Shown here: positions 40,590-45,980 of the stretch, piece after piece
Position numbering within the stretch: the stretch's first letter is position 1
Layout of the letters: the number at the start of each line of letters is the position of its first letter
Source: Candidatus Promineifilum breve
GTDB lineage: Bacteria; Chloroflexota; Anaerolineae; Promineifilales; Promineifilaceae
NCBI RefSeq assembly: GCF_900066015.1
Contig: NZ_LN890655.1
Span: forward strand, 2,706,726-2,770,725
Length of the DNA: 64,000 nucleotides
Direction of reading: 5' to 3'
Notes under the pieces: model-generated
Told to the model about the DNA's origin: nothing
Seen by the model: the letters and a program-made list of their open reading frames with translations, nothing else
Database searches by the model: none
Program-made: the position numbers and the translations under genes

Positions 40590-40615
40590 CAGATGTTACC
40601 ACACCCGTCATGTCT
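40582..40615. terminator. Inverted repeat between convergent genes
   Basis: AGACATGAC (40582-40590) and GTCATGTCT (40607-40615), a 9-bp stem with a 16-nt loop, spans the stop codons of both the sigma-nuclease gene and aapP. No T-run; a weak bidirectional terminator or a repeat element. Confidence 0.4.
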
Positions 40616-41414
40616 AGTGACTGAGGATTTGCGACAGAAACAGCTTCGTCCGCTCGCTCTTGGGGTTGGCGAAGAACTCTTCGGGTGTGTTCTCTTCGAC
40701 GATGAGGCCGCCGTCCATGAAGATGACGCGGTCGGCCACGGTGCGGGCGAAGCCCATCTCGTGGGTCACGGCCAGGATGGTGTAGCCCGACAGCGCCAGG
40801 TCGCGCATCACGTCCAGCACTTCCTTAATCATCTCCGGGTCGAGGGCCGACGTCGGCTCGTCGAACATCAGGACGTGTGGCTCCATGCACAGCGTGCGGG
40901 CGATGGCGACGCGCTGCTGCTGGCCGCCCGATAGCTGGCCGGGGTATTTGTGGGCCTGCTCGGGGATGCCGACACGGTTGAGCCAGTGCATAGCCCGCTC
41001 CTCGGCGTGCTCGCGCGTCCATTTGCGCACGTTGGTGGGGGCCAGCATGATGTTCTCCAGCACGGTCAGGTGCGGGAACAGGTTGAACTGCTGGAAGACC
41101 ATGCCCACCTCGCGGCGAATTTCGGCGATGTTGCGGATGTCGTGGCTGAGGGTGATGCCATCGACGATAATCTCCCCCGCTTGATGCTCTTCCAGCCGGT
41201 TGATGGTGCGGATGAAGGTCGATTTGCCCGACCCCGACGGGCCGATGATGACCACCACTTCGCCGCGCTTGACGGTCAGGCTGACGCCCTTGAGCGCCTC
41301 GAACTCGCCGTACCATTTGTGCACGTCGCGGCAGATGATGATCTCGTCGGCGACGTGGGGTCGGACGTGGCTGTGGGTGTGGTCGATGGGGTGGGTCGGG
41401 TCGTGATGGGCCAT
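40614..41414 (-). CDS. aapP: Polar amino acid ABC transporter ATPase
   Basis: A 266-residue GlnQ/AapP-type ATPase: Walker [22 protein letters not shown]-loop [13 protein letters not shown], signature [13 protein letters not shown], Walker [17 protein letters not shown]-loop [13 protein letters not shown]. The first 20 residues hold seven His ([16 protein letters not shown]...), an unusual extension of unknown role. Last gene of the aapJQMP operon, 31 nt after aapM. Confidence 0.95.
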
Positions 41415-41445: not shown

Positions 41446-42966
41446 CTAACGCTCGCCCACGCCCAGCCGCCGCTCCAGCCGGCGGCTATAGCCGGCCATC
41501 AGAAAGTTGCCGATGAAATAGACGATGGCGATGAAGACGTATGGCTCGCGCCGCACGCCCAGCCAGTCGGGTTGGGCCGAGATGAGATTGGCGACGCCCA
41601 GGAACTCGATCAGGCCGACCGTCTCGACCAGCGTCGTATCCTTGAAAAGGCCGATGAACTGGCCGACGATGGCCGGGATGACCGCCCGCAACGCCTGGGG
41701 CATGATGATGGAGCGGTACTTGCGCGCCGTGCCCAGCCCCAGCGCGTCGGCCGCCTCGTATTGCCCCTTGGGGATTGATTGCAGCCCGCCGCGAATATTC
41801 TCGGCCAGATAGGCGGCGGCGAAGAGGGCCACCGCCGCCAGCACCCGCCACGTGCCCAGCACCTGCATCCCCGACGGCAAAAAGATGGGGAAGAGGATGA
41901 TCGACATGAACAGGACGGTGATGAGCGGCACGCCGCGGATGACCTCGATGTAGACCGTGCTGAGCAGGGCCACGACGTTGCCCTGGAAATAGCGCAGGAA
42001 GAGATAGGCCACGACGGGCAGGGCCAGCGGCCACAGGGCGACGATCTGCTGCCCCAGGCCGTCGGCCGCGCGCAGGCCGGGCAGCGTTTGCGTCGCCAGC
42101 AGGTAGAGGGTCAGCGGGGCGACAATGAGCCAGGTGAGCCAGGGGGGCACGCCGCGAATCCGGCTGCGACGGCCGAGGGCCAGCAGCACGCCCAACGGGA
42201 ACGAGGCGATGATGCCAAAGACGGCGAGGATCAGCGTCAGCAGCAGGCCGCCCCAGGCCACATCGGGGTTGATGCGCGGCAGCGGCCCGCCCTCGCCCAC
42301 GCCCACCAGCAGCAGGTAGGCGACGATGGGCGTGAGCAGCCACAAGATCGTCAACAGCCGCCGCAGGGGCGAGCGGCGAAATACCTCGCGGCTGAAGACA
42401 AACAGGGTGGGGATCAACAGCAGCGCGTTCCACAATACCAGCAGCCACAAACGCCAATCCTGCTCGCGCGGGAAGCGAAAGACCATGAAATTGCGCAGGT
42501 TGTCGATGACCGCGCCCCAGTTCGCGCCCGGATTTTCCCATTGGGCCAGCGTTTGGGCGGCCACGTCCGGGTCGGTGCTGAGGCTGGCCCGCACCACCGC
42601 CCAACCGACGAAGCCGCGCGCCGCGGCCAGCAGCAGCAGCACCAGCAGCAGGGAAACGATAGCTCCGGTGATGGAGTTGAACAGGTTGCGGCTGAGCCAG
42701 AAGGTCAGCGGCGTGTGCTGGTGCAAGACGTTGCTGACCGCCGTGAACGTCAGCAGCAGCGCCCAGGCGAGCAGGATGGCGGCCGTGGTGATGGGCGCGG
42801 CGGCCAACTGCCCGGCCACCACGCGGATCGTGACGTAGCTGAGAAGTAGCAGCCACAGGACGTACCACCAACTGCTGAAGACGTGCTCGCGCAGAAAATG
42901 CCGCCAGCTAAAATGGCCCGTGTCGCCGCGCAGAAAGGTTTGCAGGTTATGGTAGAGCGTCGTCAT
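41446..42966 (-). CDS. aapM: Amino acid ABC transporter permease (second)
   Basis: A 506-residue permease. Several N-terminal helices, an external segment around [19 protein letters not shown], then the conserved C-terminal core with [19 protein letters not shown] and the EAA loop [27 protein letters not shown]. Resembles AapM, with extra N-terminal spans. Start ATG at 42966 follows GGTGGAGAGATAAG, 1 nt after the aapQ stop. Confidence 0.92.
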
Positions 42967-42967
42967 C

Positions 42968-44590
42968 TTATCTCTCCACCAGCGCAACGCGGCGGTTGTA
43001 CCAGTTCAGGAAGAACGAGATCGTCAGACTGAAGAATAGATACGTGCCCATCGCCAGAAAGAAAATCTGGATGACGCGGCCCGACTGGTTGAGCGTGGTG
43101 TAGGCCGTCGACCACAAGTCGGGGTAGCCGACGGCGATAGCCAGCGACGAGTTCTTGGTCAGATTGAGGTATTGGCTGGTCAGGGGCGGGATGATGACCC
43201 GCAACGCCTGGGGCAGCACGACCAGCCGCAAGCGTTGCCCCTCGGACAGCCCCAGCGCCCGCGCCGCCTCCGACTGCCCCTTGGCGACGGACTGGATGCC
43301 GGCCCGGACGATCTCGGCGATGAACGCGCCGGTATAAATAGTCAGGCCGATGAGGATGGCGGCGAAATTGGGCGACAGTCTGAGGCCGCCGACAAAGTTC
43401 AACCCCTCGATGCGCGGCACGTCCAGGCGCAGGGGCGTTTCGGGCAGGGGCAGGATGGTGCCGGTCACGCTTCCGGCGGCCAACTCGGCCGACAGGGCGG
43501 CTCGCTCGGCGGCCAGGCCGTCACAGTCGCCGCCGCTATACCCGGCGACGGCCGCGGCCAGGTCATCGACCCGCTCCACCGTGTAAGGGATGCCCGCCCG
43601 GCGCAAAGTGGCGGCAATGTTCGGCTCGATGGGCGTGTCGGCCACGGCGCACACGCTCAGCGTCGCCGCGTCCACTTGTTCGGCGCTCACGATGCCGGCG
43701 GCGACGGCCGCGTCCAGTTCGCCCAAATCATCGAGGCCCAGTTCGGCGCGGGTGGCCGCGGCCAGCTCGTCAATGCTCTGGATGCCCGTGCCATCGGCCA
43801 CCAGGAAGCCCTGATTATCGGCGGCCACGGCCGAGGCCACGAACCAGCCCACGGCGGCGACGGCCAGAAAGGCCAGCAGCGACCAGACCGGCCGGTTGCT
43901 ATTGCGCTCCGTCTGCCGTTCGCGGCGGCCCAGCCACCACCACACCAGCCCGGCCAATGCCAGCCCGCCGCCGAGGAACAGCAGCCATGTCGTGAAGGAC
44001 GGCATGACGGCGATGCCCGGCAGGTTGATGCCGCGCTGGCTCAGGAAGATGGGCAGGCCGAAGGGCTGAACGGCCTCGCGGATGGGCGGAAAGAGCAGGA
44101 TGACCCCGAAAAAGAGAAAAAATAGCTGCAATAGCAGGGGGGTATTGCGGATGAGATCGACGTACCAGCGGGCTACGTTGCGAATCAGCCAGTTGGACGA
44201 CAGGCGGGCGATGCCGGTCACCGTGCCCAACACCGTCGCCAGCACGATGCCCAGGGCGGCGACCTTGATCGTGTTCAGCGCGCCGACCAGCAGGGCGCGG
44301 CCGTAGGAGTCGCTGGGATCATAGGGGATGAGCGACTCGGAGATGGCGAACTGGGCGTCGAGGCGCAGGAAATCGAAGGCGCAGCGCACGCTGCTGCTGC
44401 CGTCGCGGCACAGGAATTGGCTCTCGCCCAGGGTCGAGAGGTTATCGCCGACGTTGCCCGCCACCCAACCCAGGGCGGACAGCACGACGATGAGAAAGGC
44501 GATCTGGGCGATGACGCCCAGCACCCGGATGTCCCGCCAGAACGGAATCCTCGCTGTGCGTTGGGGTGGTGGCGGTGTGGAATTAGTCAT
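42968..44590 (-). CDS. aapQ: Amino acid ABC transporter permease with embedded binding-protein-like segment
   Basis: A 540-residue permease of the AapQ type: NTIKVAALGIVLATVLGTV, VDLIRNTPLLLQLFFLFFG, and the EAA loop IVRAGIQSVAKGQSEAARALGLS near residues 428-447. Between helices around 198-255 and the core at 400 lies an extra external region. Within it, residues 258-276 and 314-358 align without gaps to residues 173-191 and 197-241 of the binding protein AapJ encoded next door (for example N324-CDG358 spacing equals N207-CDG241). This looks like part of lobe 2 of a binding protein inserted in the loop. Confidence 0.92.
   Translation of the reverse strand: MTNSTPPPPQRTARIPFWRDIRVLGVIAQIAFLIVVLSALGWVAGNVGDNLSTLGESQFLCRDGSSSVRCAFDFLRLDAQFAISESLIPYDPSDSYGRALLVGALNTIKVAALGIVLATVLGTVTGIARLSSNWLIRNVARWYVDLIRNTPLLLQLFFLFFGVILLFPPIREAVQPFGLPIFLSQRGINLPGIAVMPSFTTWLLFLGGGLALAGLVWWWLGRRERQTERNSNRPVWSLLAFLAVAAVGWFVASAVAADNQGFLVADGTGIQSIDELAAATRAELGLDDLGELDAAVAAGIVSAEQVDAATLSVCAVADTPIEPNIAATLRRAGIPYTVERVDDLAAAVAGYSGGDCDGLAAERAALSAELAAGSVTGTILPLPETPLRLDVPRIEGLNFVGGLRLSPNFAAILIGLTIYTGAFIAEIVRAGIQSVAKGQSEAARALGLSEGQRLRLVVLPQALRVIIPPLTSQYLNLTKNSSLAIAVGYPDLWSTAYTTLNQSGRVIQIFFLAMGTYLFFSLTISFFLNWYNRRVALVER
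43481..43819 (-). other. Binding-protein-like segment inside aapQ
   Basis: Codons 258-370 of aapQ. Matches to AapJ lobe 2 at constant offset 117: C314/C197, T319/T202, E322/E205, N324/N207, R330/R213, G333-I334/G216-I217, T337/T220, D342/D225, Y351/Y234, G354/G237 and the CDG triplet. A second block (QGFLVADGTGIQ against QGMMVRADSGIE) lies before it. Confidence 0.75.
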
Positions 44591-44609
44591 TGTCGCGCCA
44601 GGTCAGGAA

Positions 44610-44702
44610 GAATTGGCTACGGATTACCACGGATGTTACGGATAGAAACGGATAAAAAATCCATTTCCATCCGTTTTGTCCGTTTAAATCCGTAGCCATT
44701 TC
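44610..44702. repeat. GGCTACGGATTACC palindromic repeat, copy 1
   Basis: Outer arms AATTGGCTACGGATT / AATCCGTAGCCATT and inner tandem ACGGAT units pairing around AAAAA. Lies between aapJ and aapQ. Confidence 0.85.
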
Positions 44703-44717
44703 TTTATCTTAATTGAA

Positions 44718-44811
44718 GAATTGGCTACGGATTACCACGGATGTTACGGATAGAAACGGATAAAAAATCCGTTTCTATCCGTTTCGTCCGTTTAAATCCG
44801 TAGCCAATTCT
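44718..44811. repeat. GGCTACGGATTACC palindromic repeat, copy 2
   Basis: A near-identical second copy in tandem with copy 1. Inner stem GGATAGAAACGGAT / ATCCGTTTCTATCC is perfect. It ends 5 nt before the aapJ stop (minus strand), so the two hairpins follow aapJ in the transcript and precede the permease genes. Confidence 0.9.
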
Positions 44812-44816
44812 TATTC

Positions 44817-45980
44817 TTATCGGAATGGCGGCGCGTACTGGATACCGCCTTCGGTATACAGCGCGTTCAGGCCGCGCGGCAGATCGAACGGCGTATCGGG
44901 GCCGAGGTTGCGGTTGTAGATCTCGCCGTAGTTGCCGACCTGCTTGACGATCTGGTAGCAGAAGTCGTTGTTCAGGCCCATCGCCACGCCCAGGTCGCCC
45001 GTCTCGCCCATCAGGTTCTGGATGACCGGGTCCTCGCCGCCCAGGAAGGTATCGACGTTGGTCGAATCGATGCCCATCTCTTCGGCGGCGATGGTGCAGA
45101 AGATCGACCACTTGACGATGTCGTACCAGTTGTTATCGCCGTGGCGCACGGCGGGGGCCAGCGGCTCCTTGGACATGGTCTCGTCGAGGATGATGTGGGC
45201 CGCCGGGTCGGCCATCAGGATTTGCTGCGACACCAGGCCCGATTTGTCGGTGGTGAAGCCGTCGCATTGCCCTTCGTCGTAGGCCAGACGGGTCGCGTCG
45301 GCTTCGTCGAAGACGACCGGGGTAAAGTCGATGCCGCGGGCGCGGAAGACGTCGGCCAGATTCTTCTCGGTCGTCGTGCCCGACTGGACGCAGATCGTGC
45401 CGCCGTCCAGCCCCTCCAGGTCCTCAATGCCGCTATCGGCGCGCACCATCATGCCCTGGCCGTCGTAGAAGGTGACCGGCGCGAAGTCGAGGCCCAGCGA
45501 CGTGTCGCGGCTGATCGTCCAGGTGGTGTTGCGGCTGAGCACGTCCACCTCGCCCGATTGCAGGACGGGGAAGCGCTCGTTGGCCGTCGTCGGCCGCACT
45601 TCGATGGCGTTGGGGTCGCCCAGCACCGCCACGGCGAACACCTTGCAGAAGTCGATGTCGAAGCCCTCGAACTCATTGGTGTCGGGGTTGATATAGCCGA
45701 AACCGGGAACGGACTGGTTGCCGGCGCAGCGCAACGTGCCGCGCTCGCGCACTGCGTCGAGGGTGTTGCCGGTGACGACGACCGGCGCTTCGGTTGGCGC
45801 GCCTTCGGCTGCGGCCTCGGTGGGGGCGACGGTCGATTCGGCGACAGCCGGCGCTTCGGTGGCCGCGGCTTCGGCCGCGGCCTCGGTCGGCGTGGTTTCC
45901 TGCGCTGCACCGCCACAGCCCGCCAGGGCCAGGGCCAGCACCGCCAACAATGCCAACAAATAACTCAATCGTGCTTTCAT
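44817..45980 (-). CDS. aapJ: Amino acid ABC transporter substrate-binding lipoprotein
   Basis: A 387-residue lipoprotein: MKARLSYLLALLAVLALALAG then Cys (lipobox ALAGC), an Ala/Thr/Glu/Pro linker to about 70, then the type II amino-acid binding fold. LDAVRERGTLRCAGNQSVPGF, FEGFDIDFCKVFAVAVLGD, SLGLDFAPVTFYDGQGMMVR and GDNNWYDIVKWSIFCTI match AapJ/general L-amino-acid binding proteins. RBS AGGAG. First gene of the operon, separated from the permeases by two repeats that may raise its relative expression. Confidence 0.95.
   Translation of the reverse strand: MKARLSYLLALLAVLALALAGCGGAAQETTPTEAAAEAAATEAPAVAESTVAPTEAAAEGAPTEAPVVVTGNTLDAVRERGTLRCAGNQSVPGFGYINPDTNEFEGFDIDFCKVFAVAVLGDPNAIEVRPTTANERFPVLQSGEVDVLSRNTTWTISRDTSLGLDFAPVTFYDGQGMMVRADSGIEDLEGLDGGTICVQSGTTTEKNLADVFRARGIDFTPVVFDEADATRLAYDEGQCDGFTTDKSGLVSQQILMADPAAHIILDETMSKEPLAPAVRHGDNNWYDIVKWSIFCTIAAEEMGIDSTNVDTFLGGEDPVIQNLMGETGDLGVAMGLNNDFCYQIVKQVGNYGEIYNRNLGPDTPFDLPRGLNALYTEGGIQYAPPFR

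Follow-up and report, generated by a model that had tools for sequence, protein, structure and literature searches.

A lobe of an AapJ-type amino acid binding protein in an external loop of the permease AapQ

Binding proteins are known to serve ABC importers as whole domains that are free, anchored, or fused at an end. In the maltose importer, MalE contacts periplasmic loops of both MalF and MalG (PMC8276074). In GlnPQ and OpuA, substrate-binding domains are fused to the permease (PMC8025302, PMC11065425), and the ATPase subunits CmpC and NrtC carry a binding-protein-like regulatory domain (PMC11349869). Isolated PBP lobes can fold alone; for RBP and LAO, the separated lobes associate in trans, whereas those of HisJ do not (PMC10601554). 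The initial annotation of the locus studied here knew of no described case of its layout, and the open-access literature bears this out: our search found no account of a permease loop that contains just one lobe of a binding protein, nor any description of one lobe set between two permease helices alongside a separate, full binding protein.

The present locus resembles each of these systems in part. With the AapJQMP and BztABCD importers, it shares the J-Q-M-P gene order, the HEQRo permease signature, and an AapJ with a matching lobe 2, but an ordinary AapQ has about 390 to 410 residues and a TM5-TM6 loop of a few residues, whereas this AapQ has 540 residues, about 130 of which replace that loop. 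Like the P2 domain of MalF in MalFGK2, the insert belongs to one permease subunit of a type I importer, forms a folded domain within an external loop, and presumably touches the binding protein. MalF P2 is not known to stem from a lobe of a binding protein. Contact with MalE is established in the maltose importer (PMC8276074), whereas contact of the insert with AapJ is presumed. As in GlnPQ and OpuA, a binding-protein domain is covalently joined to the permease, but the domains there are whole, two-lobed, and ligand binding, whereas here there is a single lobe between helices, without ligand contacts and with a separate full AapJ. CmpC and NrtC likewise re-use a binding-protein-derived domain in another subunit of the same importer, but as a full domain at the C terminus of a cytoplasmic ATPase rather than as one lobe in the permease, outside the cell membrane.

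The window, a stretch of 64,000 nucleotides from Candidatus Promineifilum breve, contains an aapJ-aapQ-aapM-aapP amino acid importer operon (window positions 45980 to 40614, minus strand, as are all the genes and gene parts of this operon given below). The gene aapJ (44817 to 45980) encodes a 387-residue binding protein, the partner of the permease. It has a lipobox (LALAGC) and a linker of about 45 residues rich in Ala, Thr, Pro, and Glu, and because of these two features AapJ is probably a membrane-anchored lipoprotein. The intact aapQ frame (42968 to 44590) encodes an amino acid ABC importer permease that scores 59.3 bits against the BPD_transp_1 core (PF00528; cut-off, 26.4) and 78 bits against the N-terminal HEQRo signature (HEQRo_perm_3TM, TIGR01726; cut-off, 42.2). 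The second permease gene, aapM (41446 to 42966), has its start set at the ATG just 3' of the aapQ stop, and aapP (40614 to 41414) encodes the ATPase subunit. The insert in AapQ directly follows TM5 (residues 233 to 258; 43817 to 43894) and precedes TM6 (residues 409 to 430; 43301 to 43366), the first core helix on its C-terminal side. With 8 Lys and Arg against 22 Asp and Glu in the loop, and the EAA loop across TM6, hydropathy and charge indicate that the insert is in an external loop.

The starting point was an ungapped alignment of AapQ residues 314 to 358 with AapJ residues 197 to 241, preceded by a second block (258 to 276 against 173 to 191). Both proved exact, with 16 of 45 and 7 of 19 positions identical, respectively. 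None of 500 shuffles matched the 16 identities (the best had 15), and the Smith-Waterman score of 97 compares with maxima of 55 over 2,000 shuffles of the insert and 65 over 500 shuffles of the whole protein; BLASTP of AapQ against AapJ gave an E value of 2e-7. When a profile of 26 inserts was aligned to one of 20 AapJ proteins, hhalign returned a probability of 98.6 and an E value of 5.9e-16 over 95 columns, in an alignment that spans a 32-residue gap and unites the two blocks. Searched against 177,635 PDB sequences, the insert profile had one significant match, 4z9n of the AapJ family (E = 4.4e-9; the next was at 0.71). These values are far from the chance-level profile similarity that the initial annotation had named as grounds for dropping the idea. 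The similarity at 314 to 358 is thus real, but the copied unit is larger than was claimed, comprising the whole of lobe 2. It is well supported by BLASTP, profiles, and predicted fold that AapQ residues ~258 to 386 (43433 to 43819) constitute a complete lobe 2 of an AapJ-type amino acid binding protein, from hinge strand to hinge strand; by profile alignment, the counterpart in AapJ is residues 173 to 276 (45153 to 45464).

Structure prediction, the check proposed at the outset, gave a clear lobe-2 fold. AlphaFold2 applied to the insert alone (AapQ residues 255 to 392, 43415 to 43828; 26 sequences) produced a model with a pLDDT of 93.2 and a pTM of 0.83. Its best Foldseek match was again 4z9n, the Brucella AapJ homologue (E = 3.1e-5), and the best 24 matches (E up to 0.001) were all amino-acid-binding proteins of the SBP_bac_3 type. 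In VIA-align, the insert was superposed on residues 100 to 212 of 4z9n (Z = 11.8, rmsd 4.7, 106 residues), and the best row was 2ia4 (Z = 12.1, rmsd 2.3, 94 residues). The model and the alignment place about 32 additional, mostly helical residues (~278 to 309; 43664 to 43759) between the first strand/helix and the Cys strand of the Promineifilaceae insert; this extra is missing from AapJ. In SBP_bac_3 proteins, the chain runs through lobe 2 without interruption, entering and leaving at the hinge, so that this lobe can be inserted into a loop as a cassette; here all of it was taken up in this way. No counterpart of lobe 1 was found in AapQ, where lobe 2 stands alone between TM5 and TM6, and a Pfam scan gave no PF00497 match up to an E value of 1. 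The proposal that an external loop of this permease holds part of a substrate-binding domain is supported by the lobe-2 fold and the AapJ-type derivation.

Comparison of the Promineifilaceae inserts with 53 AapJ proteins separates residues of the fold core, which are retained (C197, E205, N207, G237, and C239 in AapJ numbering), from ligand-side residues. The pair Cys197/Cys239 is invariant in all inserts, present in 94 to 98% of AapJ, and not found in the other SBP_bac_3 proteins aligned, which marks the donor of the insert as an AapJ-type gene. In AapQ, these residues are Cys314 (43649 to 43651) and Cys356 (43523 to 43525), which likely form a disulfide. On the ligand side, G201, T203, D240, T243, D245, and S247 are invariant in the 53 AapJ proteins and altered in the inserts. 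At the position of T203, 88% of the inserts have Pro (64%) or Ala (24%), with Thr not among the residues listed, and at that of D240, 72% have Glu and 24% Asp; T243, D245, and S247 are substituted. By alignment, we take T203 and D240 to be the ligand contacts T121 and D161 of the LAO-binding protein. The Promineifilaceae inserts thus lack the expected ligand contacts of lobe 2 at T203 and D240, and since these residues and their neighbours are altered, binding of an amino acid in the manner of AapJ is unlikely, judged from sequence. With lobe 1 absent and the ligand contacts altered, AapQ is classed as an importer permease with an SBP_bac_3-derived lobe and not as a binding protein. Three residues, P335, R340, and E384, are newly invariant in the Promineifilaceae inserts. 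In comparable Promineifilaceae pairs, the dN/dS of the insert is 0.11 to 0.59 versus 0.02 to 0.15 for the core, or about 2 to 6 times higher; by these ratios, the insert is under purifying selection, yet its protein sequence changes more quickly than that of the core.

Within the Promineifilaceae, the insert is present in 40 of the 52 genomes sampled and in 19 of 22 genera, and at nearly every insert-bearing locus examined, aapJ adjoins the permease gene. A few Promineifilaceae, of genus g9, retain a short AapQ, so the permease can do without the lobe. A 400-genome sample of Chloroflexota yielded no further insert-bearing group, only weaker, AapJ-sized matches outside the Promineifilaceae, and there was no match to the insert on plasmids. 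Several genomes of another Chloroflexota family have paired AapJ-like frames within about 1.3 kb (G342:C47:33247-34835, G385:C17, G464:C17, and G525:C30), and when scored against the insert profile, these rank with the best of all AapJ. In a Caldilineaceae AapQ (L063:2-1486, contig JAPKMV010000420.1), the TM5-TM6 loop holds an SdrD_B-like (Ig-type) domain, matched by Pfam at an E value of 2.7e-5, below the curated cut-off. The TM5-TM6 loop of AapQ looks like a general insertion site.

Among marine alphaproteobacteria, a related insert occurs at the same junction in nine AapQ proteins of Rhodobacteraceae and Roseobacteraceae (Limimaricola, Wenxinia, Alterinioella, Carideicomes, and a Roseovarius). 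The insert was found in about 10 of 391 Rhodobacterales genomes, most relatives having a short AapQ of about 400 residues; a sample of 385 Alphaproteobacteria held no further insert-bearing group. The Rhodobacterales insert profile aligns by hhalign with its own AapJ at an E value of 3.5e-6 and with the Promineifilaceae insert at 3.8e-9, and it is missing the ~32-residue helical extra. The fold evidence for this form is weaker than that for the Promineifilaceae form: AlphaFold2 reached a pLDDT of only 71, the best Foldseek match was 4z9n (E = 2.7e-5), fold matches also included ATP phosphoribosyltransferase and LysR-type domains, which share this common fold, and the sequence profile matched designed TIM barrels and 4z9n about equally well. 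In one Rhodobacterales AapQ (L135:694-2484, minus strand), the lobe insert is followed by a charged, coiled-coil-like stretch of about 90 residues.

In a tree of the core permease built without the insert columns, the insert-bearing AapQ proteins of Promineifilaceae group as a single clade (SH-aLRT 99), with insert-free proteins of Chloroflexota and others around it, and those of Rhodobacterales are placed apart, among insert-free Alphaproteobacteria. Common descent of the two groups through the permease is rejected, as is shown by the test of joining them on the core tree (AU P = 4.9e-6). Because of this, either the arrangement arose at least twice or the lobe moved on its own. The insert-bearing proteins of Rhodobacterales turn up at five separate points of a weakly resolved core tree, so gains and losses are indistinguishable there. 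The suggestion that the segment was derived from the neighbouring aapJ finds no support in a tree of the lobe itself (105 columns), in which a long, fully supported branch splits all 53 AapJ proteins from all inserts. Nothing in this topology points to a recent local duplication of aapJ; the long branches and few columns mean that the donor cannot be named.

As to function, we favour, with a probability of roughly 0.45, the reading that the insert is a pseudo-lobe that catches no amino acids and offers AapJ a surface for docking or hand-over; the initial annotation had likewise proposed that it may be a docking surface, or else a decoy. Permanently tethered at the mouth of the permease, it would touch AapJ, most likely on the open side of lobe 1, keep it near, and aid its opening and the hand-over of the amino acid, resembling MalF-P2 of the maltose importer in role and not in fold. 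The natural partner would be AapJ, which is encoded alongside and intact. Constrained but faster evolution together with the loss of ligand residues is consistent with a pseudo-lobe that has given up substrate capture and still meets a partner. Homology and fold of the AapJ type, lost ligand contacts, the external site, purifying selection, the adjoining aapJ, the recurrence in a second phylum, and the precedents of MalE and of isolated lobes that bind in trans all argue for docking; against it stand the elevated dN/dS, which a spacer under loose constraint could also show, and the short AapQ of genus g9. The presence of one such lobe inside the permease of two unlinked AapQ groups suggests that docking or substrate hand-over has been solved in this way more than once, and because close relatives are missing the lobe, they offer a natural plus/minus comparison for the opening of AapJ by the permease.

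The same faster evolution would also suit a lobe that is a structural spacer or relic, captured by recombination between adjacent aapJ and aapQ, put up with by a permissive loop, and retained for no more than folding or stability. That this loop also hosts the unrelated SdrD_B-like domain in one Caldilineaceae AapQ and the coiled-coil-like extension in one Rhodobacterales AapQ indicates that guests are tolerated. We nevertheless consider this account unlikely, as the lobe has persisted across 19 genera, with Cys, Asn, Pro, Arg, and Glu residues that do not vary and a dN/dS well under 1, and a lobe of this kind sits in both of the unlinked AapQ groups.

A narrower and more mechanistic form of the docking idea is that the pseudo-lobe mimics lobe 2 of AapJ, pairs with lobe 1, displaces the resident lobe 2, and thereby opens closed AapJ and frees the substrate. 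The lobe is complete, with both hinge strands; the invariant Arg340 and the altered loops at 318 to 322 and 357 would, by topology, lie at cleft-facing strand ends; and the trans association of isolated LAO and RBP lobes offers a precedent (PMC10601554). The failure of HisJ lobes to associate (PMC10601554) speaks against it, as does the loss of residues on the ligand side that contribute to keeping the closed form together, and we regard such competition in trans as improbable. Still more doubtful is a half-site, in which the insert would bind substrate or an effector through new conserved residues and sense it or retain it near the permease. R340, E322, and E/D357 are newly invariant or conserved near the former site, and weak ligand binding is possible for an isolated type II lobe, but it is chiefly the discontinuous lobe that can do this (PMC10601554), that is, lobe 1 and not lobe 2, and T203, T243, D245, and S247, invariant in AapJ, are lost. 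Most speculative of these is that the pseudo-lobe is a built-in mimic of the ligand-loaded state, in which the invariant Arg340 would fill the emptied site, permanently show lobe 1 of AapJ a "closed" partner surface, and pry AapJ open, a hand-over by lobe exchange reached more than once. We know of no ABC importer with hand-over by lobe exchange. Finally, chance similarity between alanine-rich stretches, for which one could cite their common Ala/Asp/Glu richness and a G+C content of about 0.71 in the insert region, is ruled out by the shuffles, the hhalign E value of 5.9e-16, and the PDB profile search, and is widely exceeded by fold and distribution as well.

Two smaller features of the operon may be recorded. 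The N terminus of AapP has a His-rich stretch (41350 to 41414). Between aapJ and aapQ lie two tandem copies of a palindromic repeat of about 97 bp (44608 to 44704 and 44716 to 44812), which has many diverged copies in the genome (117 matches, counting both strands) and represents a MITE-like or REP-like family of intergenic hairpins.
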